Shown: positions 1 through 15,622 of the stretch, piece by piece
How positions within the stretch are numbered: position 1 is the stretch's first letter
Layout of the letters: the number at the start of each line of letters is the position of its first letter
Virus record (IMG/VR): IMGVR_UViG_3300044712_000069
Coordinates: 1-30,894 of that record
DNA from: a virus
DNA: 30,894 bases
Direction: 5' to 3' (one strand)
The notes under the pieces: generated by a model
What the model was told of the DNA's origin: nothing
Databases searched by the model: none
What the model saw: the letters and a program-made list of their open reading frames with translations, nothing else
Position numbers and translations under genes: made by a program

Positions 1-41
1 TGAGGACGGCTCTACCCGCAGTTCAAACCTTTTGGGGTATT

Positions 42-57
42 ACACTAGAACTAGTGT
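42..57. promoter_or_regulatory. Inverted repeat upstream of terminase
   Basis: ACACTAGAACTAGTGT has perfect 7-bp arms (ACACTAG / CTAGTGT) around AA. The internal 11-mer ACTAGAACTAG (44-54) recurs at 5607-5617 in the leader of the capsid gene. Presence in two non-coding leaders suggests an operator or part of a late promoter. No convincing -35/-10 pair could be assigned here, so the role is inferred. Confidence 0.4.
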
Positions 58-90
58 CTAAAACCTACGAAGGCACTAGATTTAGGAACC

Positions 91-549: not shown

Positions 550-2014
550 CAGCGACCTACTCAACGGCGACGGGGAAGTAGTTATCGACTTTGCCGAAGC
601 GTTCGGCATTATCACTAAGGACTCGATAGCCGGTCGCGCAGGGTCGCCGCTAGTTTTGCGAGAGTGGCAAAAGGAACTAATCCGCCACGTCTTCGCGGGC
701 GACGGGGAGCGTTACCGGTTTAGAACTTCCCTGATCGGACAGCCCCGTAAGAACGGCAAGTCCGCGCTGGCTTCGGTGTTCGGACTCTACGGTCTAATCC
801 TGGGAGCAAGGGGCGCGGAAGTGTATTCGGTCGCCGCCGAAAAGGAACAGGCTCGAATCGTATTCGCCGACGCTAAGCGTATGGTCGAAGCGTCACCCGA
901 ACTAAGCGCAATCACTAAGCTCTACCGCGACGCAATCGAACTACCGAAGGCGGGTTCCGTCTATCGCGTTCTATCTGCCGAAGCCTTCTCGAAAGAAGGT
1001 TTGAATCCGAGCCTTACGGTTTTTGACGAGCTTCACGCGCAGCCTAATCGCGAACTATTCGACGTAATGTCGCTCGCTATGGGAGCTAGACCGTCGGCGC
1101 AACTTATCGCCATTACAACGGCCGGTGTAAAGACCGACACTACGGGCCAAGACTCTATTGCCTATTCGCTCTACAACTATGGCAAGCGCGTTTCGACGGG
1201 CGAGGTAGACGACCCCACCTTCTTTATGGCCTGGTGGGAAGCCGACCTAGAAGCCGACCACCGCGACCCCGAAACGTGGCGATTATCAAACCCAGGCTTT
1301 GACGACATCTGCGCAGCCGACGACTTCGTATCCGCCGTTCGACGCACACCCGAAGCGGAATTTAGAACTAAGCGATGTAACCAATGGGTCAGTTCCCAGA
1401 TTAGCTGGCTACCAACGGGGACGTGGGACGCTTGCGCTGGCGAAACGGAAGTAGGCGACAAAGATTACATTCTGGGGCTTGACGGGTCGTTTAGCGGGGA
1501 CGCAACCGTAGTCACCTATACGACTATCGAGGACATTCCGCAAATTGGAATCGTCGGAGCATGGGAAAAGGACGCAACTATCCACGACGATACTTGGCGC
1601 GTGGACGTTCTGGAAGTTGAAGAAACGATTAGGCAGTTCGTAAAGGCGCACCCGAACGTAAAAGAAATCGCTTGCGACCCTTACCGCTGGACGCGCACCA
1701 TGCAGGTTCTACAAGACGAAGGCTATCCGGTGGTGGAATATCCGTCTACTAACGCCCGCCGTATGGTTCCAGCTTGCGCTAAGTTCTACGACGCGGTCGT
1801 CGATCAGAAGGTTATTCACGACGGCAATCCATTACTAGCCCGCCACATTTCTAACGCCGTAGTCAAAGTGGACAACTTAGGCCCCCGTATTGTGAAGGAA
1901 AATAGGGCTTCCCAAAGACGTATCGACGCGGCCGTAGCAGCCGTGCTATCCTTCGACCGTGCAACGGTGGGTAGAATAGAAGACGAGCCTTTGGTTCCAC
2001 AATTCTTCGTTTAG
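515..2014 (+). CDS. terL: Terminase large subunit
   Basis: 499 aa, the ATP-driven DNA translocase and headful/cos nuclease. The ATPase domain has a Walker A-like loop G-Q-P-R-K-N-G-K-S (75-83) and Walker B L-T-V-F-D-E (167-172). The C-terminal RNase H-fold nuclease shows the expected acidic residues D323 (in G-L-D-G-S), D388 (in A-C-D-P-Y) and D471 (in R-I-D-A-A). Length matches HK97-type TerL. Translation starts at GTG 515, with AAAGGA at 504-509 inside terS. No in-frame damage is visible. Confidence 0.95.
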   Translation: MWPPKWLTPVPNSDLLNGDGEVVIDFAEAFGIITKDSIAGRAGSPLVLREWQKELIRHVFAGDGERYRFRTSLIGQPRKNGKSALASVFGLYGLILGARGAEVYSVAAEKEQARIVFADAKRMVEASPELSAITKLYRDAIELPKAGSVYRVLSAEAFSKEGLNPSLTVFDELHAQPNRELFDVMSLAMGARPSAQLIAITTAGVKTDTTGQDSIAYSLYNYGKRVSTGEVDDPTFFMAWWEADLEADHRDPETWRLSNPGFDDICAADDFVSAVRRTPEAEFRTKRCNQWVSSQISWLPTGTWDACAGETEVGDKDYILGLDGSFSGDATVVTYTTIEDIPQIGIVGAWEKDATIHDDTWRVDVLEVEETIRQFVKAHPNVKEIACDPYRWTRTMQVLQDEGYPVVEYPSTNARRMVPACAKFYDAVVDQKVIHDGNPLLARHISNAVVKVDNLGPRIVKENRASQRRIDAAVAAVLSFDRATVGRIEDEPLVPQFFV

Positions 2015-2021
2015 GGCGGAC

Positions 2022-3383
2022 ATGGCAAGTTTTATCGACAGACTGCTAAACAGGCGGTCAATCAGTTTCCAAACCTTATGGGGTTCTGGGGAAGACGTAA
2101 TCCTGGGAACTCAGTCCGGAACCTATGTCACCTCGGACACCGTCTTCAAGGTAAACGCAATTTACTCGGCCGTGTCACTAATCGCCGACACCATTTCGAC
2201 CCTACCGCTCGACGCTTACATTCGGATCGACGGCGAGCGTCGTCCGTTCCGCCCACGTCCAGCCTGGGTTACTAAGCCAGACGTAGACCTAGTAAGCAAA
2301 GAGCCGTTCTATAACGCCGTCATTGTTTCTATGCTTCTAGACGGAAACGCCTTTATCCGTGTCTACCGCGACGCGCAGGGTAAGCCACTAAACCTAGTGG
2401 TGCTAAACCCTACCGACGTAGAGGTCGTCCGCAACGGTATCGGTCGCGTAATGTATCGCGTTCAATCCCACGACGAGCTTCTTTCGTCTGAGCAGGTTCT
2501 TCACATTATCGATGTGCTAAAGCCAGGTCAGATTCGCGGCGTATCCCGCGTGGAAGCACTAAAGGAAAACTTCGGTCTGGCAATCGCGCTAGAGTCATTC
2601 GCCGCCCGCTACTTTGGCCAGGGCGTAACTATGGCAGGCCACATCGAGTTCCCAGGCAATCTATCCCCAGAGCAAGCCAAAGACTTGTCAGACGCGTTCT
2701 CTAGTCGCCACGGCGGTTTCCGCAAGGCACATAAGGTCGGCGTTCTTTCCGGTGGCGCGAAGTTCGTTAGCGATCAGGTAGATAACAACGCTGCCCAATT
2801 CATCGACTCCCGCCGTATGGCCGTCGAGGACGTAGCCCGCGCATTCAACATTCCACCGCACCTACTTGGCCTACCTGGAACAAACACCTATTCATCGGTC
2901 GAGCAGAACAACATCGCTTATACCCAAATGACGCTTCGTCCAATCGTGCAGAAGCTCGAAGGTGCGTTCTCTACTTTGCTATCTGCCGAAGCCGGTGGCG
3001 AAAACGCGTTTATCCGTTTCAGCATGGACGGACTTCTACGCGGTGATTCAAACTCGCGCTTTGCCGCTTACTCTAATGGCTTGCAGTCCGGTTGGCTAAC
3101 CGTAAACGACGTTCGCCGACTAGAAGACCTAACCCCTATCGAGGGTGGCGACATCGCCCGCGTTCCACTTGCAAACATTGCAATTACCGACGCAGGTATC
3201 GTTGCGGAAGACAAGAAGGTAATGATGGCAAACCGCCTAGTTACTGCGGGCTACGATCCGAAGGAAGTTCTAGCCGCCCTAGACCTACCGGCAATCAAAC
3301 ACACGGGAGTTCCGAGCGTAATGCTTCAAGGTGTGGCGCAGATAGACCCAGAAGACCCGCAGGGCGTTTACGAGGCTAACTAA
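2022..3383 (+). CDS. Portal protein, HK97 family
   Basis: 453 aa. It forms the dodecameric ring at the capsid vertex through which DNA is packaged and to which the connector attaches. The early segment V-N-A-I-Y-S-A-V-S-L-I-A-D-T-I-S is characteristic of HK97-type portals, as is the I-P-P-H-L-L-G-L segment in the second half. Length is normal. The ATG lies seven bases after the terL stop with a purine-rich AGGGCGG before it. The stop overlaps the next start (TAATG). Confidence 0.93.
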   Translation: MASFIDRLLNRRSISFQTLWGSGEDVILGTQSGTYVTSDTVFKVNAIYSAVSLIADTISTLPLDAYIRIDGERRPFRPRPAWVTKPDVDLVSKEPFYNAVIVSMLLDGNAFIRVYRDAQGKPLNLVVLNPTDVEVVRNGIGRVMYRVQSHDELLSSEQVLHIIDVLKPGQIRGVSRVEALKENFGLAIALESFAARYFGQGVTMAGHIEFPGNLSPEQAKDLSDAFSSRHGGFRKAHKVGVLSGGAKFVSDQVDNNAAQFIDSRRMAVEDVARAFNIPPHLLGLPGTNTYSSVEQNNIAYTQMTLRPIVQKLEGAFSTLLSAEAGGENAFIRFSMDGLLRGDSNSRFAAYSNGLQSGWLTVNDVRRLEDLTPIEGGDIARVPLANIAITDAGIVAEDKKVMMANRLVTAGYDPKEVLAALDLPAIKHTGVPSVMLQGVAQIDPEDPQGVYEAN

Positions 3384-3649
3384 TGGCTATCACTTCGGGA
3401 ACTCAAATGATTGGGACGGAGCGCACCCAGATAGACGGAAACTCCGTGAATTGGGTAATGCTAACTATTCGCAACAACGAATCGACCAAGACTCTATACG
3501 TCGGCAATAGCACCGTTACCGTTGGAAACGGCTTGCCTATTGTGAAAGAATCGACTCAAAGTTTCGAGCTACCACCAGGGGAGAGCCTATCCATGATTAG
3601 CGATAGCGGAAGCCATAGTGTTTCTTGGCTAAGAATCGAGCGTGTCTAA
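3383..3649 (+). CDS. Small beta-rich head protein
   Basis: 88 aa, not assigned to a named family with certainty. The sequence is rich in alternating Val/Thr/Ser and has the segment L-Y-V-G-N-S-T-V-T-V-G-N-G-L-P. Such segments occur in small beta-sandwich virion proteins, so a capsid decoration or vertex protein is possible. There are no cysteines, signal peptide or membrane segments. It overlaps the portal stop and the protease start by one base each (TAATG), which ties it to the head operon. The structural role is inferred from position and composition. Confidence 0.75.
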   Translation: MAITSGTQMIGTERTQIDGNSVNWVMLTIRNNESTKTLYVGNSTVTVGNGLPIVKESTQSFELPPGESLSMISDSGSHSVSWLRIERV

Positions 3650-5346
3650 TGCCGTATTTTATTTGGAACGAATCCCCTAGTTGTTCGGGTTGGGCCGTAG
3701 TCAAAGAAGACGGCGAAGTAAAGTCCTGCCACAAAGACAAGCAATCCGCCATCGACGCTATGGTCGGAATTAGCGTGGCCGAAGGTATCGAGCCAGGCGG
3801 AACCTACGAACCACACTCCGAAGAAGTCCACGTCCAACAAGACGAATACAGAATCGAATCTGGTCCAGGTGCGGTTATTGCCGACATCGACGGAACGCTT
3901 CTAACTTTCCAGGGTCAGCGTATAGACCGAGTCCACGACTTCCTAAACACTTTCGAAGACACGGAAATTATTATCGTGACGGCAAGACTCGCTTCGGATC
4001 GGGCAGAAACCGAACGCGAACTAGATAATGCCGACATCGACTACGACTTGCTATTTATGAAGCCAAATGCCGATACCGATTCGACCGATTGGAAGAAGGC
4101 AACGGCAGAACGTCTTTTGGAAACCTATAACGTAATGGTTGCCGTAGACGACAATGCCGACATTCGTTCCGCGTATCGCGACTTGGGCATTACCGCAATT
4201 GCCCCCAGCGAGGTTCCAGCTTCGACCGACGACGAGTCGCAAGACGAAATGGACGAGCGCGCAGTAAACCTAACCCCACCGGCCTACATGAGAGCCGCAG
4301 CCCGACAAGGCTTGCGCTACTACGAAGAAGGTAAGGCTGGCGATGGAGTGGTGGAAAGAACTATCCGTGAAGCTCGCGCTATGGCGGAAGGAAATGTCAC
4401 GGCAGATAAGTGGGTTCGGATTCGGGCTTGGATTAGCCGTCACCTTGTTGATTTGGATTCGCCCGCCGCTAGACCTGATTCCCCTGATTATCCAAGTCCT
4501 GGCGTAGTCGCTCACTTGCTTTGGGGTTCGGGGCCTTCTAAGGCTTCGGCTCGCCGTGCGTTGGCCTATGCCGAGGGCGTGGTTAGTAGAATGGAACAAG
4601 AGAACGAAGGCCGAGCGAAAGGCGAAGCATTGTCAAAGATTGAAACTCGCGTATTCACAAACGAGTTTGAAGTCCGCGAAGACGGCGAAGGAATGACCCT
4701 AACCGGTTATGCCGCCCGATTCAACGAGCCAAGCGAGCCGCTTCCGTTTATCGAGCGTATCAAGCCAGGCGCATTCAAGCGATCTATCAACTCACGCAAC
4801 GACATAAAACTTCTATGGAACCACAATACCGACATGGTTCTAGGCTCTACCCGTGCGGGAACCCTAACTCTAAAGGAAGATGAAATCGGTCTACGCGTAG
4901 TCGCTACGTTGCCTGATAATTCATGGGGACGGGACGCAAAGGTTTCGATTCAGCGTGGTGACGTAACGGGTTTCAGCTTTGGATTCACCGTTCCAGCGGG
5001 CGGGGATTCATGGTCCAGCGATGGAACCGAGCGCACTCTAAAAAGCGTAAGACTTCTAGAGGTGTCTACCGGAGTCGCTTTCCCTGCCTACCCAAGCACC
5101 AACGGAACCGCTCAGGTTCGAGGACTTGACAAGGTCGCCCAGCGCAACAATATCGACGCGGACGCACTAGCAGACGCATTGCTAAAGATTGAAGACGGGC
5201 AGTCCATCTCTAAGGACGAAGCCGAAATGGTTTCCCGTGTAATCAACGACCTAGCACCTTCAGATTCAGTCGAGCAGAATCAGGGCGACTTGGGTATGCT
5301 TGCACTAAAGAAGAAGAAACTAGAACTACTACTCAAAGGAATCTAA
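3649..5346 (+). CDS. Prohead protease fused to a HAD-like phosphatase domain
   Basis: 565 aa, far longer than the roughly 200 aa of a typical HK97 prohead protease. Four parts are visible. (1) Residues 11-45: a small Cys-containing module (G-W-A-V-V-K ... C-H-K-D) seen in other phage head proteins. (2) Residues 74-187: HAD fold with D79-I-D81-G-T, T111 after a hydrophobic strand, K149/K150 and D167-D168. (3) Residues 206-318: helical W/R-rich module. (4) Residues 331-490: U35-type serine protease with H392 (W-N-H-N) and S443 (G-F-S-F-G-F); E471 is a candidate third residue. The C-terminus is Lys-rich and helical. ATG 3649 overlaps the previous stop (TAATG); the in-frame start 24 bases upstream is less likely. 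The protease should trim the capsid scaffold domain; the HAD substrate is unknown. Confidence 0.9.
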   Translation: MPYFIWNESPSCSGWAVVKEDGEVKSCHKDKQSAIDAMVGISVAEGIEPGGTYEPHSEEVHVQQDEYRIESGPGAVIADIDGTLLTFQGQRIDRVHDFLNTFEDTEIIIVTARLASDRAETERELDNADIDYDLLFMKPNADTDSTDWKKATAERLLETYNVMVAVDDNADIRSAYRDLGITAIAPSEVPASTDDESQDEMDERAVNLTPPAYMRAAARQGLRYYEEGKAGDGVVERTIREARAMAEGNVTADKWVRIRAWISRHLVDLDSPAARPDSPDYPSPGVVAHLLWGSGPSKASARRALAYAEGVVSRMEQENEGRAKGEALSKIETRVFTNEFEVREDGEGMTLTGYAARFNEPSEPLPFIERIKPGAFKRSINSRNDIKLLWNHNTDMVLGSTRAGTLTLKEDEIGLRVVATLPDNSWGRDAKVSIQRGDVTGFSFGFTVPAGGDSWSSDGTERTLKSVRLLEVSTGVAFPAYPSTNGTAQVRGLDKVAQRNNIDADALADALLKIEDGQSISKDEAEMVSRVINDLAPSDSVEQNQGDLGMLALKKKKLELLLKGI

Positions 5347-5523
5347 ATGGCTACCAAAGAGCAAATCAAGAAGGCAATCCTAGAGGTAGCCGGCAACCCG
5401 ATCAGCGGCGCAATCGCCGACCTAGCAGACTCAATGGCCGACGCTGTTGTCGCCATTGACACTCCCGCCTTCGCTGGCGAGGCAAAAGAAGCGCGTGTAA
5501 CCAAGCCGACCGAAATTCGATAG
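5347..5523 (+). CDS. Small conserved head-operon protein (58 aa)
   Basis: 58 aa, starting ATG one base after the protease stop. It begins M-A-T-K-E-Q-I-K-K-A-I-L-E-V-A-G-N-P and ends with a basic tail A-R-V-T-K-P-T-E-I-R. The middle is Ala/Asp-rich and helical (A-I-A-D-L-A-D-S-M-A-D-A-V-V). Similar short proteins occur between the protease and capsid genes of other siphoviruses, as I recall them, but no function is known to me. It is the last gene before a strong terminator, so it closes the packaging/maturation transcript. Confidence 0.8.
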   Translation: MATKEQIKKAILEVAGNPISGAIADLADSMADAVVAIDTPAFAGEAKEARVTKPTEIR

Positions 5524-5542
5524 TCGCCAAGCTTACGCTTCT

Positions 5543-5585
5543 CCCCGCCGGTCTTCCCCTTTCACCGGCGGGGTTCTTCTTTTTG
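5543..5585 (+). terminator. Rho-independent terminator before the capsid gene
   Basis: A perfect 10-bp stem, CCCCGCCGGT (5543-5552) and ACCGGCGGGG (5564-5573), with an 11-base loop, followed by TTCTTCTTTTT. It separates the terminase-protease transcript from the capsid gene and implies a separate promoter in 5586-5691. Confidence 0.92.
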
Positions 5586-5691
5586 CGGTATGCAGTAGTG
5601 CTATAAACTAGAACTAGGCGTGTGAGTTAGCTCTAGCCGTTTTGGTCTGCGTCAGCGCGACTAATTACATTCATTCAATTTAGGAGAAACA
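5586..5691 (+). promoter_or_regulatory. Promoter-bearing leader of the capsid gene
   Basis: A 106-base non-coding stretch between a strong terminator and the capsid gene, so a promoter is expected. It holds an AT-rich box TATAAA (5602-5607) overlapping the 11-mer ACTAGAACTAG (5607-5617) also present at 44-54. A TTGCGG lies upstream (5583-5588), but the 13-base gap to TATAAA is too short for a standard promoter. A strong Shine-Dalgarno TTAGGAG precedes ATG 5692. The exact promoter is unresolved. Confidence 0.5.
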
Positions 5692-6855
5692 ATGTCAGAG
5701 TTCATCAAGGCTCAACACGAACTCCGCGCAAACTTGACCATGCAAATTCGCGAGGTCATCGACTCGGCAGAGGCCGAGGGTCGCGGACTAGATTCTGAGG
5801 AATTGCAGAAGATCGACCGTATCGAGGCCGACATTCGCAAGGCCGACGAGTCCATCGAGGTAGCAACCCGCGCAGAGGCTCGCAAGGTTGAGGCTTCCGT
5901 AGCCGCTAAGGGATTCATTCCTTCGGTTTCCGAGGAGCGTTCCGCTGGCGACGTATTCCGCGCACTAGCTAAGGGCGAGGCTCGTTCTTACGAGTTCGAG
6001 AAGCGCGCCGCTCTAGTATCTTCCGCTAACACCGTTCCTAAGTCGTTCTACGACCAGGTATTCGATGTTGCTCGTCTAGCTGGCCCAATGCTAGAGGTTT
6101 CGGACGTAATCCAGACCACCACCGGCGAGAACCTAACTATCCCAACCCTAACCGCTTACTCGACCGCTGCACTAACCGCAGAGGGTTCGGCTATCTCGGC
6201 TTCGGAGCCTACTTACAGTTCAATCACTTTGGGCGCATACAAGTATGGCTTCCTAATCCAGGCAGCCAACGAGCTAGTTACCGACGCAGGTTTCGACCTA
6301 GCTTCTCACCTAGCACGTCAGGCAGGTAACGCTATTGGTTACGCAGTAAACGCTGCTCTAACCACCGGAACCGGAACCGTTCAGCCTCTAGGTATCGCTA
6401 CCGCAGCTGGCACCGGCGTTACCGGCGGCACGGGGGTTTCAGGCGGCTTCACCGCGGACAATCTTATCGATTTGGCCTACTCGGTAAATGGAAGTGTCCG
6501 TCGCTTGCCATCGGCCGGATTTATGGCGAACGGTCAGACCATCGGTGCTATGCGTAAGCTAAAGGACACCGCTGGCAACTACCTATACCAGGTAGGCGTT
6601 GGCTACCCTGACACCTTCGCTGGCTTCCGCGTCGTGGAGAACCCACACGTTGCAGCCATCGCAACCGGTGCAAAGTCCGTTCTGTTCGGTGACCTAGAGT
6701 CCTACAAGGTTCGCCTTGCAGGTGGTATCCAGGTTCAGTCTTCACAGGACTACGCTTTCGCAAACGACCTGACCACCTGGCGTTTCTTGATCCGTCTAGA
6801 CGGTAACTTGACCCACCAGGCTCACGTTTCAGCCTTCAAGGGTGCAGCTAGCTAA
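5692..6855 (+). CDS. Major capsid protein, HK97 fold
   Basis: 387 aa. The first ~100 residues are charged and helical, matching the scaffolding delta domain removed by the prohead protease. The rest carries typical HK97-fold stretches such as F-L-I-Q-A-A-N-E-L-V-T-D (after about residue 190) and the glycine/threonine-rich T-G-T-G-T-V-Q-P-L-G-I-A. A strong AGGAG Shine-Dalgarno precedes the ATG, and the gene is flanked by terminators, so it forms its own high-level transcript. Leucine usage is extreme: by hand count 18 CTA, 7 TTG, 2 CTT, 2 CTG and 1 CTC of 30. Confidence 0.95.
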   Translation: MSEFIKAQHELRANLTMQIREVIDSAEAEGRGLDSEELQKIDRIEADIRKADESIEVATRAEARKVEASVAAKGFIPSVSEERSAGDVFRALAKGEARSYEFEKRAALVSSANTVPKSFYDQVFDVARLAGPMLEVSDVIQTTTGENLTIPTLTAYSTAALTAEGSAISASEPTYSSITLGAYKYGFLIQAANELVTDAGFDLASHLARQAGNAIGYAVNAALTTGTGTVQPLGIATAAGTGVTGGTGVSGGFTADNLIDLAYSVNGSVRRLPSAGFMANGQTIGAMRKLKDTAGNYLYQVGVGYPDTFAGFRVVENPHVAAIATGAKSVLFGDLESYKVRLAGGIQVQSSQDYAFANDLTTWRFLIRLDGNLTHQAHVSAFKGAAS

Positions 6856-6871
6856 TCCCTTGTAACAAACT

Positions 6872-6914
6872 GATAGGCCCCGTGTTGTAGGTTGCACGGG
6901 GCCTATCTTTATTT
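6872..6914 (+). terminator. Strong terminator after the capsid gene
   Basis: A perfect 13-bp stem, GATAGGCCCCGTG (6872-6884) and CACGGGGCCTATC (6895-6907), with a 10-base loop and then TTTATTT. It isolates the capsid message from the glycosyltransferase cassette. Confidence 0.95.
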
Positions 6915-6928
6915 GCTAGGCTAATCGC
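6892..6928 (+). promoter_or_regulatory. Candidate leaderless promoter of the glycan cassette
   Basis: TTGCAC (6892-6897) and TAGGCT (6917-6922) are 19 bases apart, and TAGGCT ends six bases before ATG 6929. There is no Shine-Dalgarno. This spacing would start the transcript at or next to the ATG, as in actinobacterial leaderless genes. The -35 box overlaps the preceding terminator stem. Inferred from pattern only. Confidence 0.45.
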
Positions 6929-8104
6929 ATGACAACCTACGGCGCAATTTCAATCGCAAGCAATTCTCCAGGCTCGCCTACGGGCTATGGAGTCCAGGGC
7001 CTACTACTAGCCGAACGCCTAAAGCGCGACGGCTACGACGTTGCCGCACTATCCAACTTCGGTCTAGAAGGCAACATCTCAACGCTCGAAACCAAATACG
7101 GCCCGATCGCACACTATCCCCGTGGCTACACGCTCTATTCGGGCGACGTTCTAGAAACCCACCACAAGCACTTCCTAGCCGGACGTGAAATCCCAAACGC
7201 AATTCTTACGCTTTACGACGCTTGGGTTTACCTAGACGTGCCACAACTAGAAGACCTAAAGTTCTGGTCTTGGACTCCGGTAGACCATCTATCCGTTCCG
7301 CCAAAGGTTGCGGCTTGGGCTAAGCGACCGAACGTAAAAACTATTTCAATGAGTCCGTTTGGACAAAGGCAATTTCAAGCTATCGGCGTAGACTCTACCT
7401 ACATTCCCCACGCCGTCGATACTTCGGTTTACAAGCCGACTGACAACATCGAAGGCTATTCGCTAAAGCAATACATGGGCGTAGGCGAGGACGACTTTAT
7501 CGTCGGTATGGTGGCCGCTAATAAGGCCAATGGTTCGATTCACCGCAAGGCCTATGCGGAAAACCTACTTAGTTTCGCGATGTTCCGACAGAAGCACCCG
7601 AACGCTTACCTATACATTCATGCCGAGCCGTCTAGGGTCTTCGGCGGTTTCCACCTAGCAACCCTTATGAAATCCGTAGGACTTCCAGAAGACGCGGTGT
7701 TGTTCCCTAATCCGCATAAACTTCGCTATGGGTATTCGTCCGAGGAAATGGCAGGGCTTTATTCCGCGATGGACGTTCTACTACACGCGTCCTACGGCGA
7801 AGGCTTCGGCGTTCCAGCCATCGAAGCCCAGGCTTGCGGAACCCGTGTCATTGGTTCTAATTGGGCGGCAACTCCGGAACTACTCGGTTCGGATTCTTGG
7901 TTAGTAGACGGCCAGCCGTTCTGGGACGAAGCGCAGTCATCGTTCTTCCAGATTCCGCTAGTGCCTTCCCTAGTAACCGCCCTTGAGCAGGCATACAACG
8001 CCCCTAGAGGGGTTTCTACGGCAAGCGTAGAATTCGCTAAGCAATTCGAAGTCGAAGCCGTCTATGAGCAGTATTGGAAGCCGTTTCTAGCCGAGAACCT
8101 ATGA
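6929..8104 (+). CDS. Glycosyltransferase, GT4-like (GT-B fold)
   Basis: 391 aa. It should transfer a sugar from a nucleotide-sugar donor to an unknown acceptor. The N-terminus has S-P-T-G-Y-G-V-Q-G followed by a helix, as in GT4 acceptor domains. The C-terminal donor domain has the E-X7-E motif (E291 and E299, in E-G-F-G-V-P-A-I-E) and then A-C-G-T-R-V-I-G-S. No signal peptide or membrane segment is seen, so it acts in the cytoplasm. It lies after the capsid terminator and is the first gene of a three-gene cassette, overlapping the next by four bases (ATGA). Acceptor candidates are capsid or tail proteins, or host-derived glycans. Confidence 0.88.
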   Translation: MTTYGAISIASNSPGSPTGYGVQGLLLAERLKRDGYDVAALSNFGLEGNISTLETKYGPIAHYPRGYTLYSGDVLETHHKHFLAGREIPNAILTLYDAWVYLDVPQLEDLKFWSWTPVDHLSVPPKVAAWAKRPNVKTISMSPFGQRQFQAIGVDSTYIPHAVDTSVYKPTDNIEGYSLKQYMGVGEDDFIVGMVAANKANGSIHRKAYAENLLSFAMFRQKHPNAYLYIHAEPSRVFGGFHLATLMKSVGLPEDAVLFPNPHKLRYGYSSEEMAGLYSAMDVLLHASYGEGFGVPAIEAQACGTRVIGSNWAATPELLGSDSWLVDGQPFWDEAQSSFFQIPLVPSLVTALEQAYNAPRGVSTASVEFAKQFEVEAVYEQYWKPFLAENL

Positions 8105-8748
8105 TCCCCGTTCTAGGTTTTGCGACGCTATCCAGGTTCGACCTGGCGCAACGTCTATTGGATTCCATCGACTACCCCGTCGAACACCTGGTAATCGTAG
8201 ACAACTCTGGCAAAAAGGTATTCGAGCCGAAGGTAAATGACAACGTAAAGAATCTCTGGGTTCTACGGGTGCCAAGCGGACTCGGTGCTAACGGGGCCTG
8301 GAACCTAATCATCAAGTCCACGCCTCACGCGCCCTATTGGGTTATCCCAAACGACGACGCACACTTCGAACCAGGCGCACTCGAAACCATCGCTAGAGAA
8401 GTCCAGACGGACAAGTTCAACTTCTTGAACATTTCCCCTAAGTGGTCGTGCGTAATCCCGACAGAAGGCAGCGTAGGCAAGGCGGGACTATGGGACGAAG
8501 TATTCCACCCGATCTACTTCGACGACGACGAATACGAATGGCGTATGCGCGAACTAGGCGTAGAGTTCCACACTATCAACGCACGCGTTTACCATGACAA
8601 TAGCTCAACGCTTCACAGCGGATTCCAAGAGCGTAACGCCATGACCTATACCCGTAACAACTCCATGTTTACTAACAAGCGGGCGGCTAAGAACATCGGC
8701 ATTATTGGTTGGTCGCTAAAAGTGCGAAGGGAAAACAGATGGGACTAA
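8101..8748 (+). CDS. Glycosyltransferase, GT2-like (GT-A fold)
   Basis: 215 aa. The N-terminal strand P-V-L-G-F-A-T-L-S-R-F-D resembles the nucleotide-binding start of GT2 enzymes. The metal-binding segment is probably N84-D85-D86. A later F-D-D-D-E-Y-E-W-R-M-R-E-L-G block (about residue 139 on) resembles the catalytic acidic region. It is shorter than many GT2 enzymes but looks intact. ATG 8101 overlaps the GT4 stop (ATGA), and the 3' end overlaps the next gene by ten bases, so the three are co-translated. The product linkage and acceptor cannot be read from the sequence. Confidence 0.85.
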   Translation: MIPVLGFATLSRFDLAQRLLDSIDYPVEHLVIVDNSGKKVFEPKVNDNVKNLWVLRVPSGLGANGAWNLIIKSTPHAPYWVIPNDDAHFEPGALETIAREVQTDKFNFLNISPKWSCVIPTEGSVGKAGLWDEVFHPIYFDDDEYEWRMRELGVEFHTINARVYHDNSSTLHSGFQERNAMTYTRNNSMFTNKRAAKNIGIIGWSLKVRRENRWD

Positions 8749-9161
8749 GGGTTTACACCGGTGGAACCTTCGACTTATTCCACGCGGGCCACGTTGAGTT
8801 TCTAAAGACTTGCGCTCAACTAGGCGACGATGTCTATGTGGCTCTAAATACCGACGAATTTATAGCCGAATACAAAGGCAAACCGCCCGTCATAAGCTAC
8901 GAAGATCGCAAGAAGGTTCTTCTGGCGTGTAAGTATGTGGACTTCGTAATCCCTAACTCAGACGGCAAAGACTCGTGCCCTACTATCGAATCCGTGGCCC
9001 CGCACATTATCGCTATCGGTTCGGATTGGGCGCGTAGGGATTACTACAAGCAAATGAATTTCACGCAGGATTGGTTGGACGAAAGAGGAATAAGCCTTAT
9101 CTATATTCCCTATACCCAGGGCATTAGTTCTACCGAAATAAAGCAAAGGCTAGGGAAGTAG
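8739..9161 (+). CDS. Cytidylyltransferase-like nucleotidyltransferase
   Basis: 140 aa with the hallmarks of the TagD/RfaE/CTP:phosphotransferase superfamily: Y-T-G-G-T-F-D-L-F-H-A-G-H, with H15-A-G-H18 as the nucleotide-binding HxGH, and G-I-S-S-T-E-I-K (128-135), matching the family ISTT motif. Length is right for a single-domain enzyme such as glycerol-3-phosphate cytidylyltransferase. It should make a CDP-activated (or similar) alcohol or sugar, perhaps for the two glycosyltransferases just upstream. ATG 8739 with GAAGGGAAAA upstream is chosen; an earlier in-frame start lies deeper in the GT2 gene. Confidence 0.9.
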   Translation: MGLRVYTGGTFDLFHAGHVEFLKTCAQLGDDVYVALNTDEFIAEYKGKPPVISYEDRKKVLLACKYVDFVIPNSDGKDSCPTIESVAPHIIAIGSDWARRDYYKQMNFTQDWLDERGISLIYIPYTQGISSTEIKQRLGK

Positions 9162-9173
9162 AATAGACGTATG
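9155..9173 (+). promoter_or_regulatory. Candidate leaderless start motif, copy 1
   Basis: GAAGTAGAATAGAC then G-T-ATG. TAGAAT (9159-9164) resembles a -10 box and ends six bases before ATG 9171; no Shine-Dalgarno is present. The same 14-mer, in the same position relative to the ATG but a different reading frame, occurs before the peptidase gene at 19577. Confidence 0.5.
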
Positions 9174-9770
9174 ATTACCAACGGATACTGCACACTAGCG
9201 CAAGTAAAAGCGGGACTCCGCATAAATGACACCGTGGACGATTCCCTTTTGGAGATGGCGGTAGAGTCCGCTTCCCGCGCGATGGATTCCTACTGCAATC
9301 GCGTCTTCTACTCCACCGGCACGGCAGTAGTTCGCTATTACTCACCACGCGATTCTTACCTATGCGAAATCGACGACCTAGTATCCCTGACTTCGCTATA
9401 CACAAACAATAACCAGACTCAGACCAGCTATAACGTCGCTTGGACTTCCGAGGACTATCAGCTTGAACCGCTAAATGGTTTGGCAGATTCGCAGCCGGTT
9501 CCTTATACCCAGATTCGTGCGATCGGTAACCTAACATTCCCGAACCTAAATGGCGAAGCAAGCGTAAAGGTTACGGGCGTATTCGGTTACAACGCAGTCC
9601 CAATCGCCGTTACCCAAGCAACCGTTATCCAGGCTTCCCGTATTTACAAGCGACTAGACAGCCCGCTAGGAATTATCTCCGGTGAGCTTGGTTCTATGCG
9701 CGTAGGCACTCGCCTAGACCCAGATGTAGCTCAGCTCGTAGACGGCTTCCGTAAAGTGAGAATGGCCTAA
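9171..9770 (+). CDS. Head-tail connector protein (gp6-like)
   Basis: 199 aa. The N-terminal half (C-T-L-A-Q-V-K-A-G-L-R-I ... L-L-E-M-A-V-E-S-A-S-R-A-M-D-S-Y-C) has the helical pattern of HK97 gp6-like adaptors that sit under the portal. It lies after the glycan cassette, the usual position after the capsid gene in related phages, which suggests the cassette was inserted between capsid and connector. It probably starts without a Shine-Dalgarno (see the motif at 9155). It overlaps the next gene by one base (TAATG). Confidence 0.85.
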   Translation: MITNGYCTLAQVKAGLRINDTVDDSLLEMAVESASRAMDSYCNRVFYSTGTAVVRYYSPRDSYLCEIDDLVSLTSLYTNNNQTQTSYNVAWTSEDYQLEPLNGLADSQPVPYTQIRAIGNLTFPNLNGEASVKVTGVFGYNAVPIAVTQATVIQASRIYKRLDSPLGIISGELGSMRVGTRLDPDVAQLVDGFRKVRMA

Positions 9771-10177
9771 TGGCAGACATTCAACAACTGCGAACCGGTA
9801 TCTGCAACAACCTAGCGACGATTAGCGGCCTACGCACTTCGATAGACATTCCAGACAACCCGAACCCGCCCGTTGCTATCGTCCAGCTAGTCCGCGTCGA
9901 GTATCGCCAAGACTTTAGAAACGGCATGGCGGAATACACTTTCGCCGTTCAGGTTCTCGTCGGTCGCGTAGACGAACGATCAGCACAACGCAATCTAGAC
10001 GCTTACTGCTCTAGCGATTCCGCGTCGTCTATACGGGGTGCGATAGAATCGAATAGGAATCTTGGTGGTTACGCTTATGACTGCGTAGTTACCGAGATGT
10101 CGTCTTACGGAAGCGTTCTGGTAAACGACACCACCTATCTAGCGGCGGAATTCGCCGTTAGAGTGCTTGCAAGCTAA
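9770..10177 (+). CDS. Probable tail terminator / tail completion protein
   Basis: 135 aa. No firm motif, but size, position between connector and tail tube, and the mixed alpha/beta pattern (I-C-N-N-L-A-T-I-S-G-L-R ... A-E-Y-T-F-A-V-Q-V-L-V-G) fit siphovirus tail terminator proteins that stop tail-tube growth and join it to the head. It starts at TAATG with the connector gene and is followed by a good Shine-Dalgarno for the tail tube. A neck protein is the main alternative. Confidence 0.65.
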   Translation: MADIQQLRTGICNNLATISGLRTSIDIPDNPNPPVAIVQLVRVEYRQDFRNGMAEYTFAVQVLVGRVDERSAQRNLDAYCSSDSASSIRGAIESNRNLGGYAYDCVVTEMSSYGSVLVNDTTYLAAEFAVRVLAS

Positions 10178-10189
10178 TTAGGAGAAAAC

Positions 10190-10597
10190 ATGGCAAAGCT
10201 AGTTCTCACCGACGTTGTTACCACCATTGGCGGAACTGACTACTCGGCGAACATCAACCAGGTAGAAATTTCCGTTTCTGCCGACGAAGTAGAAACCACC
10301 GCATTTGGTTCTGCTTGGCGCACCTCAACCAACGGCCTAAAGTCTGGAACCTTCACCGTATCGTTCCACTCTGACTACGCCGCTGCTGCAATCGACTCCG
10401 GTCTATGGACCTTGTTCGGTTCTGCCGCTACCGTTGTCGTAAAGCCAGCTGGAACCGCGACTTCCGCTTCAAACCCAAGCTACACCTTTGCAGTAAACGT
10501 AAACAACCTGACCCCAATTTCGGGCGCAGTTGGCGACCTAGCAGTAGCAAACGTTACCTGGCCGATCACCGGTGCAGTAACTCGCGCAACTGCCTAA
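10190..10597 (+). CDS. Major tail protein (tail tube)
   Basis: 135 aa, strongly beta-rich with many Thr/Ser/Val/Ala, as in siphovirus tail tube proteins. Segment V-E-I-S-V-S-A-D-E-V-E-T-T-A-F-G is typical of the family. A strong Shine-Dalgarno (TTAGGAGAAAAC) fits the high output needed for a tube subunit. It is followed directly by the frameshifting chaperone gene, the standard siphovirus order. Confidence 0.85.
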   Translation: MAKLVLTDVVTTIGGTDYSANINQVEISVSADEVETTAFGSAWRTSTNGLKSGTFTVSFHSDYAAAAIDSGLWTLFGSAATVVVKPAGTATSASNPSYTFAVNVNNLTPISGAVGDLAVANVTWPITGAVTRATA

Positions 10598-10619
10598 CAA
10601 CTAAAAAGGAAACCTACAA

Positions 10620-10871
10620 ATGAGAATAAATCTCGAAATCGAACAAGTAGACGGAACCAAGCAAGAGGTTACCGCTTCAGCCATTGACCTAGTCAAGTTC
10701 GAGGAAAAATACGACATCAGCGTATCTAAGCTCGATAAGGAAATGAAGCTTACCCACTTGCTATTCCTAGCTCACACGTCGCTAAAGCGACAGAACAAGA
10801 CCGCTCTAGACTTCGACGCATGGCTAGAAACGGTTGAGAGCGTAGGAGCTTCGGCTAAAGACCCAAAATAG
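10620..10871 (+). CDS. Tail assembly chaperone, short form
   Basis: 83 aa, acting like the lambda G product: it coats the tape measure during tail assembly and is not part of the virion. The sequence is charged and helical. It ends at tandem TAG TAG directly behind the slippery heptamer C-CCA-AAA (10862-10868). Position between tail tube and tape measure is the standard one. Ribosomes that do not shift make this form. Confidence 0.85.
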   Translation: MRINLEIEQVDGTKQEVTASAIDLVKFEEKYDISVSKLDKEMKLTHLLFLAHTSLKRQNKTALDFDAWLETVESVGASAKDPK

Positions 10872-11014
10872 TAGGGCTTGGCGATAAGTCGTCACATTGG
10901 TTTATCGCCGGCCTTGCTGTTGAAACGGGCATAGCCCCGTCGGTTCTTATGCAGGAATCCGATCGTATGTTGTGGACTATGGGTCGCTACTTGATTTGGA
11001 AACACTCGGCATAA
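10620..11014 (+). CDS. Tail assembly chaperone, -1 frameshift product
   Basis: About 131 aa. Slipping back one base at C-CCA-AAA avoids the TAG and continues for 48 codons in the -1 frame: I-V-G-L-G-D-K-S-S-H-W-F-I-A-G-L-A-V-E-T, then through M-Q-E-S-D-R-M to ...L-I-W-K-H-S-A, ending at TAA 11012-11014. This extension has no start of its own and its protein-like composition (Trp, His, Met well placed) supports translation. It corresponds to the lambda GT protein, whose T domain recruits tail tube subunits. Only a fraction of ribosomes should make it. Confidence 0.85.
10862..10868 (+). other. Slippery heptamer for -1 frameshifting
   Basis: CCCAAAA in the phase C CCA AAA, fitting X-XXY-YYZ, directly followed by TAG TAG in the zero frame. 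Both A-site and P-site tRNAs can re-pair on CCC AAA. Confidence 0.85.
10880..10909 (+). other. Hairpin downstream of the slippery site
   Basis: GGCGATAA (10880-10887) pairs perfectly with TTATCGCC (10902-10909) around a 14-base loop; two T-G pairs may extend the base. It begins 11 bases after the heptamer. It is well placed to slow ribosomes and stimulate slipping. Confidence 0.65.
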
Positions 11015-11044
11015 CCCCTGCTAATCGCGGGGGTTTTGCTTTTG
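11013..11044 (+). terminator. Terminator/attenuator inside the tail operon
   Basis: AACCCCTGC (11013-11021) and GCGGGGGTT (11027-11035) form a 9-bp stem with one T-G pair and a 5-base loop, followed by TTGCTTTT. The left arm overlaps the TAA (11012-11014) that ends the frameshift product, so a shifting ribosome would occupy the stem. Downstream tail genes have no obvious promoter, so this is probably partial or regulated. Confidence 0.75.
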
Positions 11045-11073
11045 GTAGACTTGAAGAAACAAGGAGTCGGTTT

Positions 11074-11697
11074 ATGTTTATAGGTGGCGAAGTATCGGCT
11101 CAAGACATCAAGCGCATAAACGCCGCCCTAAAGCTGGTCGAGCCAGAACTGCTCAAAGAGATTCGTTCTGAAATCAAGTCAATTACCAAACCGATTCAAG
11201 ACCAGATAAAGAAAAACATTCCAAGCAAGCCACCTATGAGCGGTATGGGTGGAGTTGTCTTTAACAAGAAGACCGGAAACTACTCGATAAACGAGGGTCG
11301 CCTACGCTGGGACGGAGCAGGCTTACGTTCGCCTAGTGCCGTAAAGCCAAATGCCGTAACGGTAAATAGTTCTATGCGAGCTACGGGGCGTTCGCTAAAT
11401 ACTGCCCTGGCAAAAATCGTCGTGCGATCCGCAGCCGTTTCTATGGCAGACATGGCAGGACGCGTGAACAAGAGCCGACCGATTTCGCGTGAGTATTACT
11501 ACCGCAACCGCGCAGGTGAAATCGTGAAGCGTAAGCACCGCGTTACCACGCAGGGCAAGACTTTTATTCGCAACCTGGCAGGGTCGGCTTCCCGTTACGC
11601 TTGGCCCGCACTAGAAGGTAAAATTGACGAAGTAGCTAAGGAACTCGAAACCCGTGTTTTGGATAAGTTCTATCGCAAGCTAAATAGAAGGTTCTAA
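11074..11697 (+). CDS. Putative gp10-like tail completion protein
   Basis: 207 aa, basic. ATG 11074 is preceded by GGAG at a good distance; a longer frame from 10972 would overlap the frameshift product and the terminator, so it is rejected. Features are K-P-I-Q-D-Q-I-K-K-N-I-P, then a Gly/Pro turn, a central basic segment, and a C-terminal helix after Y-A-W-P-A-L-E. This resembles HK97 gp10-like neck or tail completion proteins, but only weakly. Lying between chaperone and tape measure is slightly unusual for that role. It overlaps the tape measure gene by one base (TAATG). Confidence 0.6.
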   Translation: MFIGGEVSAQDIKRINAALKLVEPELLKEIRSEIKSITKPIQDQIKKNIPSKPPMSGMGGVVFNKKTGNYSINEGRLRWDGAGLRSPSAVKPNAVTVNSSMRATGRSLNTALAKIVVRSAAVSMADMAGRVNKSRPISREYYYRNRAGEIVKRKHRVTTQGKTFIRNLAGSASRYAWPALEGKIDEVAKELETRVLDKFYRKLNRRF

Positions 11698-14402
11698 TGG
11701 CTGGAAATGTAAAAGTTGTTCTCAAGTCCGTATGGGACGACAAGGGCGTTAGGGACGCACAACAACAACTAGGCAATTTAGGCAAAGGTCTAGGCGTATC
11801 TTTCGCCGCCGTATCCGCTGCCGTAGTCGGTGCGGGGATAGCCGTTGCGGGCTTTGCTTCTAAAGCCGTAGACGCAGCCGAGAACGTCCGGCAGGCAGAC
11901 AACCGACTAGGCCAAGTTGCTAAGTCAATGGGGCTATTCGGCTCACAGACCGCAGACGTAACTAACCGCCTTATTGCGCTCGCGGAAGCAAACGAAGTCA
12001 ATCTTGCTATTGACGCGGAAACCATCAAGCTGACGCAGTCCAAGCTTCTAACCTTCAAGGAACTAGCTGGAAGCGCAGATGAAGCGGGTGGAGCTTTCGA
12101 CCGCGCGACAATGGCCGCCCTAGACCTAGCCGCCGCTGGATTCGGTTCGGCGGAAACCAATGCCACACAACTAGGTAAAGCTCTACAAGACCCGATCAAG
12201 GGCCTAACCGCGCTAACCCGTTCCGGTGTCACCTTCACAAAGCAAGAGAAGGAAAACATCAAGACCCTGGTTGAATCTGGCCAGACCCTAAAGGCGCAAG
12301 ACCTAATCCTGCAAGCCATCGAAACGCAGGTAGGTGGAACCGCCCAGGCAACCGCTAAGGCTTCCGACAAGATGAAGCTGGCGTTTGAGAACGTCTACGA
12401 AACCGTCGGAAAAGCCCTATTGCCGGTATTCGACGACTTGGCTAATGAAGTCGTAGCACTTACCCCAGAAATTGCCGACGCTCTAACGCCCGTCATGGCA
12501 CAACTAGCCGAGGTCTTCCGCAAAGAGATTATTCCGCTTATCAAGGAATTTACCGGTTGGCTTGCGTCACCGCAGGGAACTAAGGCCGTCAAAGACCTAA
12601 CCGCTGCCGTTGTCGATTCCGTAAAGGGCTTCTTCGACTTTACTAAGAAGCTAATGGAGAATTGGGATCAGATAGTCGCCGTTACGGGCGTTCTGGTTTC
12701 GCTCTATGGTGCTATCAAAATCTTTACCACCGTTACCACGGCCGCCCGCGCCGCTATGTTGCTATTCAACGTAGCCCTTACCGCCAACCCAATCGGTGCG
12801 CTACTTGTCGTCCTCGGTCTGACTACCGCTGCCGTTATTGCCTTCACGAAGGAAGTAACACCTGCAACCCAGGCAATCAAGAACGCCAAGAACGAAACGA
12901 TGGCACTTGAGCAAGAACAAATTAGGCTCAAGGAAAAAATCAAGCAGGGTGGACTTGGCTGGCAGAACTACCAAGACCAGCTAATCAAGGTAAACGACAA
13001 ACTTATGGAAGCCAAAACCGGCTTCTCTACTTCGGCGGGTGAAGCGAACCGTTTTGCCAACATCAAGCTAACGGGCGTAAACAACGAAATCGACGCAACC
13101 GCTCGCAGACTAAAGGGACTAGCTAACCAATTCGGTGAAACCACGGGTGAAGCTCAAAGATTCGCTAACCTACGCCCAGCTACTACTAATACAGGTGGCA
13201 ACGGTGGCGGTGGCGGTGCGTCTGGTCCAACCCCTGCGGAACAACTTGCAGAAGCTCGCAAGAAGGTTCAAAAGATTATTCAGGACGCGCAAAAGCGTGT
13301 CGCAGAAGCACAGAAGACCTATACAAAGGCAGTAGCCGCAGCGGACAAGGCGTTCCTAGAGAACGAGCTAAAGATTCGTGAGGACTACGGCAACCGCCTA
13401 GCCGACATTATCGAGCAGTCTAAGAACCGAATCCGCAACGCCTACAAGTCGATCGCAGAGTTCAACGTATCGACGTTCCTATCAAACTTCCAAGAGGTAG
13501 AAGCGGCTCGTCTAAAGTCCTTCGAAGACGCTAAGAAAGCAGCCGAAGAAGTAGGCACGGCGTTTACTGAAGTATTTACCGCTGGCGACCCCGTAAAGGC
13601 TTACCTAGACAACCTTCGCGCCAAGATCGCGTCAAACAAGAGGGTTCTGGATACTAGCGCAAAGCTACTTGAAGCAGGTTTCTCGCAGACCTTCATCGAG
13701 CAGATTATCTCCACCGGTGAAACGGGTGGTATCGCATTAGCAGAAGGTCTACTAGCAAGTAGTCCAGAAACTATCCGCGAAGTCCAAGCTCTATTCAAGG
13801 AAATTGAATCCGTTGCAGGCGCGGGTGCAGACGCTCTAGCAAATCAGCTATACGAAAAGCAGGGCCTAGCAACCCAAGAACTAATTACCCTATTCGACGA
13901 CACTAATAAGCAACTTCTAGACGCACTAGCCGCTAATTACGATGACTACACAAAGTCACTAGCCGACGCTGGAACCGCACTAAAGGATTCTCTAACTGCT
14001 ATTACGGCAGACTTTGACAGCGCGATCGCCGAGATGGAAGGCAAGCTAGGGGGACTAGGTGCGACCGTAAAGTCGTTCCGCGCCATGCTTACCGGTTTAG
14101 CCGAACAAACTATCGCGGCTACTACTCCAATCGCTAAGGGTTCGGTCGGTAAGACTAGTGACGGTGGTGGTTTCCAATTCAACATCGACCAGGCTCTAGG
14201 ACAGGCCCCTGGAACTTTCGCTGCTTCTCAATTCCCACCAATCGCCGCCAAACCAAGCACGTTACCGGCAACCACGCAACCCGCTACTGTTATCAACGTG
14301 AATGTAAAAACGGATCAGACTCAATCAACCGCCCAGGTCGGTGCAGTTATCGCAAACGCGATTAGCAAATACACATCTAACGGTGGAAAGGTTCTGCTCT
14401 AG
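11697..14402 (+). CDS. Tail tape measure protein
   Basis: 901 aa, the longest gene here. It sets tail length and is ejected on infection. It has an N-terminal hydrophobic Ala/Gly-Val stretch (about 35-55), a long hydrophobic block (about 325-382) with N-P-I-G-A-L-L, a Gly-rich linker (about 500-511) and a long Ala/Lys/Glu coiled coil (about 513-590). At 901 codons a tail of roughly 130 nm would follow from the usual 1.5 angstrom per residue, an inference. The large minus-strand frame opposite it is a shadow. The stop overlaps the next GTG start. Confidence 0.93.
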   Translation: MAGNVKVVLKSVWDDKGVRDAQQQLGNLGKGLGVSFAAVSAAVVGAGIAVAGFASKAVDAAENVRQADNRLGQVAKSMGLFGSQTADVTNRLIALAEANEVNLAIDAETIKLTQSKLLTFKELAGSADEAGGAFDRATMAALDLAAAGFGSAETNATQLGKALQDPIKGLTALTRSGVTFTKQEKENIKTLVESGQTLKAQDLILQAIETQVGGTAQATAKASDKMKLAFENVYETVGKALLPVFDDLANEVVALTPEIADALTPVMAQLAEVFRKEIIPLIKEFTGWLASPQGTKAVKDLTAAVVDSVKGFFDFTKKLMENWDQIVAVTGVLVSLYGAIKIFTTVTTAARAAMLLFNVALTANPIGALLVVLGLTTAAVIAFTKEVTPATQAIKNAKNETMALEQEQIRLKEKIKQGGLGWQNYQDQLIKVNDKLMEAKTGFSTSAGEANRFANIKLTGVNNEIDATARRLKGLANQFGETTGEAQRFANLRPATTNTGGNGGGGGASGPTPAEQLAEARKKVQKIIQDAQKRVAEAQKTYTKAVAAADKAFLENELKIREDYGNRLADIIEQSKNRIRNAYKSIAEFNVSTFLSNFQEVEAARLKSFEDAKKAAEEVGTAFTEVFTAGDPVKAYLDNLRAKIASNKRVLDTSAKLLEAGFSQTFIEQIISTGETGGIALAEGLLASSPETIREVQALFKEIESVAGAGADALANQLYEKQGLATQELITLFDDTNKQLLDALAANYDDYTKSLADAGTALKDSLTAITADFDSAIAEMEGKLGGLGATVKSFRAMLTGLAEQTIAATTPIAKGSVGKTSDGGGFQFNIDQALGQAPGTFAASQFPPIAAKPSTLPATTQPATVINVNVKTDQTQSTAQVGAVIANAISKYTSNGGKVLL

Positions 14403-15622
14403 TGTCTATTCCTACGCCGAAAGTAGAAATCGGTTTTGACATCACGGGTTCGAACGCTCCACTATTCACGCTAGACGACCCCGTAAAAGGTCTACTGAAT
14501 AACACGCAATACCCGCTCGGTGGACAAATCTTCTACGATGTAACCCAATATCTAATCAGCGTTTCTATCGACCGCGGTAAGAACCGAGAACTAGACGTAT
14601 ACGACCCTGGTTTGGCTAACGTCGTGCTACAAAACCGCCAGCGTATCTTTGACCCATTGTTCACTTCTTCGCCCTTCTATGGGCAGATTATCCCGAAGCG
14701 AGCGATCAGGATTAGTTACGATAACCAGCTAGCGTTCGTTGGAGTTATCGACGATTGGAACTTCTCGTATTCCCCAAATGGTGAAAGCCTAGTATCCGCT
14801 GCCGCTTCCGACGCGTTCGTCTACTTCTCAAACCAGACCCTAGACGCTCAGACTTTCACATCACAGAAGACCGGTGAGCGTATTGCCGTAGTGCTATCCG
14901 ACGCTTCGGTTAGCTGGCCCCTAGAGAACCGCAGTCTGGAAACGGGATTTACCACGATCGCGGGCGACACCGTCGCGCAGGATACGAACGTTCTGGATTA
15001 CCTGCAAACCGTAACACGCTCGGAGCCAGGTTCGCTATTCATCGGTAAGGACGGAAACGTCGTCTTCAATGACCGACGCACGGCCGCTTCTTCTGGTGGT
15101 GTTACCTTCGCGGACGATGGAACGGGAATCACCTATAACCAACTTGGTATCGAATACGGATCGGAAACGCTCTACAACGAAATCGTCGTGGGTGCGACCG
15201 GCGGAACTGCAATCGTCACCGACTCTACTTCGCAAGCCGAATACGGTGTATTGAACCTAACCCAAACGGGTCTACTGATTCAGGCACAGGCCGACGTGAA
15301 CGCGCTGGCTTCTTATCTAATCTCGCTCTACAACCAGCCCGAATACCGCTTCCGCACTTTGGAAGTTCAGCTAGATGAGCTAACAACGGCGCAACAACAA
15401 CAAATCTTAAACTTGGAAATCGGTTCGGTTGTGAGAATCAAGTTCACACCTAACGGTATCCCGCCAGCGATTGACCGCTACGCGGAAGTAATCCAAATCA
15501 ACCACGGAAGCAATCAAATAACTCACAGCGTAAAGCTAAGTTTCGCAACTCTAGAAACCGCACTACTCGTCCTAAGTGACGCAGAGTTCGGTAAACTAGA
15601 CCTATACGCTTTAGCGTTCTAA
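14402..15622 (+). CDS. Minor tail protein (distal tail / hub)
   Basis: 406 aa, mostly beta. It begins at GTG 14402, overlapping the tape measure stop. The position directly after the tape measure, and segments such as Y-L-I-S-V-S-I-D-R-G-K-N-R-E-L-D-V-Y with repeated V-R-I-K-F and S-V-K-L-S-F strands, fit the tail-tip hub proteins of actinophage siphoviruses. No lysozyme or peptidase motif is visible. It is followed by a strong Shine-Dalgarno (AAGGAGAATC) for the first fibre-like protein. Confidence 0.75.
   Translation: MSIPTPKVEIGFDITGSNAPLFTLDDPVKGLLNNTQYPLGGQIFYDVTQYLISVSIDRGKNRELDVYDPGLANVVLQNRQRIFDPLFTSSPFYGQIIPKRAIRISYDNQLAFVGVIDDWNFSYSPNGESLVSAAASDAFVYFSNQTLDAQTFTSQKTGERIAVVLSDASVSWPLENRSLETGFTTIAGDTVAQDTNVLDYLQTVTRSEPGSLFIGKDGNVVFNDRRTAASSGGVTFADDGTGITYNQLGIEYGSETLYNEIVVGATGGTAIVTDSTSQAEYGVLNLTQTGLLIQAQADVNALASYLISLYNQPEYRFRTLEVQLDELTTAQQQQILNLEIGSVVRIKFTPNGIPPAIDRYAEVIQINHGSNQITHSVKLSFATLETALLVLSDAEFGKLDLYALAF

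Follow-up and report, generated by a model that had tools for sequence, protein, structure and literature searches.

A conserved terminator-like hairpin at the -1 stop codon of a phage tail-assembly chaperone gene probably marks the border between two transcription units

Results

The window analysed here spans the whole of a virus record, 30,894 bases. Among cultured phages, the closest relative found was Pontimonas phage phiPsal1 (MG835450), whose terminase is 59.6% identical and which was reached by protein search alone; blastn of the chaperone-junction region against cultured phages gave no match, and an Rfam search of the window and four relatives returned no RNA family. As phiPsal1 was discovered during the sequencing of a streamlined marine Microbacteriaceae strain (it is no longer available; PMC6106888), the window phage likely has a planktonic actinobacterial host, and small planktonic actinobacteria are probably the hosts of the dozens of relatives with the same junction. 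Chaperone-bearing viral contigs yielded 25 and 80 loci in two scans, and a scan of bacterial genomes for the chaperone yielded three more, two of them in one Microbacteriaceae metagenome-assembled genome. With near-identical sequences collapsed to one, the junction set comprised 62 distinct sequences.

The short frame-0 gene at 10620-10871 (+ strand, 83 aa) follows the tail tube gene (10190-10597; phrog_4574, major tail protein) and precedes the tape measure gene (11697-14402; phrog_27166), and this position together with its relatives points to a G-like tail-assembly chaperone gene. Its protein had no match in Pfam and fell in no named family, and nine of ten chaperone relatives matched phrog_6889 (unknown function) with weak scores (best E 1.8e-4). 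The frame-0 stop codon TAG (10869-10871) directly adjoins a slippery heptamer, CCCAAAA (10862-10868, + strand), which lies in the register X_XXY_YYZ, and most relatives carry CCCAAAA or AAAAAAA at the same position. The -1 frame extension (10865-11014, + strand), corresponding to the T-like part of a G-T fusion, translates as KIVGLGDKSSHWFIAGLAVETGIAPSVLMQESDRMLWTMGRYLIWKHSA and ends at TAA 11012-11014, 143 nt past the frame-0 stop. Both the in-register heptamer and the -1 frame are conserved in relatives, so that the frameshift frame proposed in an earlier note on this DNA, made from its letters alone, is real, as is the stop of unshifted ribosomes that the note had placed about 140 bases upstream. 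Judged from sequence, the chaperone layout is of the lambda G/G-T type with a programmed -1 frameshift, whose product in cells is predicted.

A stem-loop 3' of the slippery site (10869-10919, + strand) is a candidate frameshift stimulator, with a predicted fold of -28.4 kcal/mol (z = -6.0) that is stable in near relatives and weak in several distant ones. Across 53 sequences its pairing, assessed as far as the last pair but one, is kept only in part, and a strictly conserved stimulator stem was not upheld.

A hairpin of nine pairs, AACCCCTGC-TAATC-GCGGGGGTT, occupies 11013-11035 (+ strand), its stem beginning with the final two bases of the -1 stop TAA, and is followed by TTGCTTTT. The T-rich tract, TTTTGCTTTT (11034-11043, + strand), contributes its first two bases to the stem and is likewise T-rich in relatives. 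The earlier note had located this overlap of stop codon and hairpin correctly. For 11000-11060 the fold energy is -22.6 kcal/mol (z = -3.9), and none of 200 dinucleotide shuffles was equally stable. A terminator scanner run over positions 1-15000 ranked the hairpin second, behind 6872-6907; since the whole scan yields fewer sites than shuffled sequence does, however, its single matches are not evidence.

Conservation is more informative. In 51 of the 62 distinct junctions, a hairpin with a T-tract starts -3 to +3 nt from the end of the -1 stop, meaning that the outer end of its stem falls anywhere from the first base of the stop to 3 nt past it; one further locus (L008) has a like hairpin, but its T-tract is too short for the script cut-off and it stands outside this count. 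The stems differ among relatives (AACCCCTGC, GAGGAAGGCACCCC, GCCGCTCC, GAAAACCCCCG and others) and their place is constant, which indicates that position and structure are kept rather than sequence, and hence that the overlap of -1 stop and hairpin is a conserved feature and not an accident of the window. The hairpin is thus terminator-like, as in the note, and conserved. A stable, GC-rich hairpin, a T-rich tract directly after it and a conserved place are what is expected of an intrinsic terminator, and we infer that 11013-11043 acts as one.

Other sites in the window offer a comparison. A terminator behind the major capsid gene (stop 6853-6855) lies at 6872-6907 (+ strand, z = -6.2) after a spacer of 16 nt, counted from the last stop base to the first stem base, and TAGGCT (6917-6922) comes after it, six nt ahead of ATG 6929. 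A further terminator-like hairpin with a T-tract precedes the major capsid gene (5543-5584, + strand, 10-bp stem, z = -2.0). At 9159-9173 (+ strand), TAGAAT stands six nt ahead of ATG 9171 and supplies, with its TAG, the stop codon of the open reading frame before it; a near relative (L006) has GGTAGAATAG at the matching position; this is a probable leaderless promoter inside the structural gene block.

The distance from stop to stem differs sharply between the two kinds of terminator. At the chaperone junction the spacer is -3 to +3 nt (51 loci), or -2 to +7 nt to the first G-C pair, whereas behind the major capsid gene it is 14-23 nt in all 17 loci, which were picked by hand, leaving out hairpins inside genes and the opposite strand of the chaperone hairpin; the two distributions do not overlap. 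Li and colleagues showed that in E. coli a terminator a few bases past a stop codon is almost fully repressed, about 10-15 nt of free RNA being needed, and that a one-base change of frame that moved a stop from 28 to 5 bp upstream of the terminator lowered termination from about 90% to below 10% (PMC4824070). The capsid terminators obey this spacing rule. The overlap is specific to the chaperone junction, where the -1 stop is so placed that a shifted ribosome would block the stem.

The loops of these terminators have regularities of their own. The capsid-terminator loop contains a conserved core, TTGTAGGTT or TGCGTAGG (window 6872-6940; L002, L009, L018, L032, L050, L055, L065). In a subset of phages, a run of 6-11 nt in this loop (11 nt in L018) is complementary to the beginning of the following gene; in the window, the loop GTTGTAGGTTGC is complementary to ATGACAACCTACGG. 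The two capsid-loop types each pair with matching gene starts, a signal that may partly reflect homologous glycosyltransferase genes. A general complementarity of capsid loop and next start was rejected, as it is confined to this subset and missing in L008, L094, L097, L099 and L102. Some chaperone-terminator loops (L046, L048, L049, L050, L053, L054) are ACTACGCAT or CCTACGCA, the reverse complement of the capsid-terminator loop TGCGTAGG from the same phage group.

Immediately after the T-rich tract, the window has a putative -10 box, GGTAGACTTG (11044-11053, + strand), whose hexamer TAGACT (11046-11051) fits the actinobacterial TAnnnT or TANANT (PMC3890552). Behind it, a Shine-Dalgarno sequence AAGGAG (11061-11066) and ATG 11074-11076 (together 11061-11076, + strand) open the first gene of the downstream unit (11074-11697, + strand, 207 aa, no named family), which is followed by the tape measure gene. 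The pattern TA[GA][AG][ACT]T occurs 3-13 nt past the hairpin in 44 of the 46 hairpin loci that have no inserted gene, compared with 4.9% of random 36-nt stretches from those loci, and 34 of the 46 have the stricter GGTAGA[AC]T, whose background rate is 0.6%; column counts give G-G-T-A-G-A-(A/C)-T-t-G. The two hairpin loci without a box are L078, a near miss, and L100. Matches in L083, L103 and L104 are off-consensus, and no tail-gene start was found behind them; a tRNA at the off-consensus junctions (L083, L100, L103, L104, L054) was tested as a candidate and none was found.

Distances from the hexamer to the probable start codon cluster at 6-8 nt and at 17-25 nt. The shorter distance is that of leaderless genes, of which actinobacteria have many (PMC3160421); the longer, to whose class the window belongs, gives space for a short leader carrying a Shine-Dalgarno sequence such as the one seen here. 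In Corynebacterium glutamicum, TAnnnT (reported as TANANT) is present at 97% of starts and the -35 element is weakly conserved, a -35 motif having been found for 704 of 2,522 promoters (PMC3890552). A sigma-70 scan of the junction detected no -35 box or sigma-70-like pair; given the proportion in C. glutamicum, a -35 element is not a strict requirement of actinobacterial sigma-A promoters. A conserved TAnnnT, suitably spaced from the start of the gene, is in keeping with such a promoter, and the box at 11044-11053 would serve as the promoter for the next tail genes.

Over the 62 junctions, the presence of the hairpin and that of the box tend to coincide (Fisher p = 1.3e-4, a descriptive value because the loci are related). 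A first pass with a strict motif had given a weaker association (p = 0.026), which on inspection was due to genuine variants such as TGTAGAAT and to loci with inserted genes; the second pass used the looser pattern with its own background rate, and two loci were corrected by hand (L008 to hairpin, L060 to none).

Six relatives (L002, L005, L034, L041, L067 and L017) carry opposite-strand genes between the hairpin and the tail gene. Five share a homologous inserted gene on the - strand (L002 6416-6877, L005 3744-4316, L034 872-1336, L041 1288-1749, L067 1219-1719), and L017 has small unrelated open reading frames. In all six, the box [AG][AG]TAGAAT[TG]G stands directly 5' of the displaced tail gene, so that the box goes with the tail gene rather than with the hairpin. 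The inserted antisense family begins MGAVKEA... or MGAMKE..., is 153-190 aa long as called and recurs between the chaperone terminator and the tail gene; the two members scanned had no Pfam match.

Other junctions lack the hairpin. L056, L059, L060 and L092 have neither hairpin nor box, and the next ATG follows a few bases past the -1 stop; translation of the next gene might here be coupled to frameshifted ribosomes. In L018, L065 and phiPsal1 there is no terminator and the box overlaps the stop codon TAG. In the numbering of loci phiPsal1 is L109 (L109 6170-6231 = MG835450 11169-11230); its annotated gene phiPsal1_017 begins inside the chaperone -1 extension (stop 11230), the frameshift product is unannotated, and the annotated start is probably too early.

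Discussion

Our analysis points, with good though not full confidence, to 11013-11053 as the border between a capsid, tail tube and chaperone unit and a tape measure unit. RNA polymerase that has passed the capsid, tail tube and chaperone genes would stop at the intrinsic terminator at 11013-11043, and transcription of the tape measure and distal tail genes would begin afresh at a sigma-A-type promoter, recognised chiefly through TAGACT 11046-11051. The transcript would begin at about 11057-11059 with a short leader, and many relatives would make the next mRNA without a leader. The same order, a terminator and then TAnnnT, recurs behind the major capsid gene, in support of such a border. The tail genes therefore seem to be served by a promoter of their own: the box is conserved, stays with the displaced tail gene and is mostly missing from junctions that lack the hairpin. 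Weighing against this reading are the failure to recognise a -35 box, the hairpin loci whose box is missing or off-consensus, and the boxes that occur without a terminator in L018, L065 and phiPsal1.

The hairpin, its T-rich tract, their position, the conserved box and the contrast in spacing are features of the sequences themselves; why the terminator is packed onto the -1 stop we infer from the paths that ribosomes would take. Most would be released at the frame-0 stop (10869-10871), some 140 nt ahead of the terminator, as the usual low shift rates suggest (the ratio in lambda is 30:1; PMC5009743). With so early an exit, the terminator would not have to stand clear of the -1 stop and could lie directly on it. 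At the capsid gene all ribosomes would reach the stop, and the terminator is kept 14-23 nt away. Now and then a shifted ribosome may allow some polymerase to pass, as a by-product, and that frameshifted ribosomes cause some read-through is plausible from the published E. coli data.

The overlap could also be read as a regulatory device, as in the earlier note, in which transcription of the tape measure genes could depend on frameshifting: the leading shifted ribosome would cover the left arm of the stem, the terminator would fail, and tape measure output would track the shift rate. The -1 stop overlaps or nearly contacts the stem in 51 of 51 hairpin loci, in contrast to the 14-23 nt behind capsid genes, as the mechanism would require, and the loss of termination when a stop stands 5 bp away in E. 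coli (from about 90% to below 10%; PMC4824070) makes it physically sound. Read-through is nonetheless unneeded if the downstream genes are served by the conserved -10-like box, and the overlap persists in the six loci with inserted genes, which read-through would enter first and in antisense; related phages without a terminator at the chaperone junction exist, and tight gene packing with relaxed constraint accounts for the overlap. We therefore regard such gating as improbable. The dependence of tape measure transcription on frameshifting that the note proposed is unsupported, given a box at 44 of 46 loci that stays with the tail gene in six of six; the stop is placed as in a translation-coupled attenuator, but the downstream genes would not lack a promoter of their own, on the assumption that the box is one.

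Two further roles can be considered for the hairpin. It might mainly stabilise the 3' end of the upstream mRNA, processed or blocking exonucleases, and not be a strong terminator, as would suit a GC-rich stem that closes the structural gene block and is conserved in structure but not in sequence. The T-rich tract in nearly all loci and the promoter-like box directly after it are, however, as for a terminator, with which a stabilising role is in any case compatible, and we give this reading little credence. Least probable of all is a long-range stimulation of the frameshift, after the model of gene 10 of phage T7, whose frameshift reportedly involves a CCCC located over 200 nt downstream, within the transcription terminator (PMC5009743). 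The window stem does hold CCCC, 143 nt past the shift site, but L073, L075 and L076 share the slippery site and have a left arm without CCCC, and a nearer candidate stimulator exists at 10869-10919; with CCCC missing in several relatives, a T7-like role for it was rejected.

The junction is therefore most likely a border between two units and not a switch controlled by frameshifting. The overlap is tighter than a mere lack of constraint requires, and this may leave room for a function. It is conceivable, though we consider it doubtful, that the overlap is under selection, each shifting leading ribosome passing one polymerase and so adding tape measure transcripts to the output of the promoter. 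Were this proved, recoding would be linked to transcription, and the G:GT chaperone ratio to the supply of tape measure, across a group of actinobacterial phages. The border itself provides a clear transcription map for a little-studied phage group: a capsid, tail tube and chaperone unit and a tape measure and tail unit each have their terminator and their probable promoter, the predicted mRNAs often being leaderless. The contrast in spacing, 14-23 nt against overlap, agrees with the published finding that a ribosome terminating close to a terminator represses it, and amounts to a natural test of that rule.

The arrangement shares elements with several known systems. As in lambda G/G-T, a short gene lies between tail tube and tape measure, with a slippery heptamer near the end of frame 0 and a conserved -1 extension; unlike lambda, the window and most relatives have a terminator and a promoter-like box after the -1 stop, although in L019-L026, L056, L059, L060 and L092 the next gene follows directly. 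A GC-rich hairpin, a T-tract and a -10 box, with 6-8 nt to the start codon in many relatives, resemble a terminator followed by an actinobacterial sigma-A promoter, often a leaderless one (PMC3890552, PMC3160421), but here stop codon, hairpin, -10 and start codon are compressed into about 65 nt and the stop comes from the frameshift frame. With pyrBI-type attenuation and the repression of terminators by ribosomes (PMC4824070), the junction has in common that a ribosome ending nearby can block the hairpin; it differs in that no known signal shifts the ribosome position and the downstream genes apparently have their own promoter. T7 gene 10 (10A/10B) likewise has a terminator downstream of a frameshifted structural gene (PMC5009743), although the gene is a different one and the CCCC element is not conserved in the relatives of the window. 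Closest is phiPsal1, with the same gene order and a terminator behind the capsid gene, but with no terminator after the chaperone and with its GGTAGACTGG box overlapping the -1 stop TAG.
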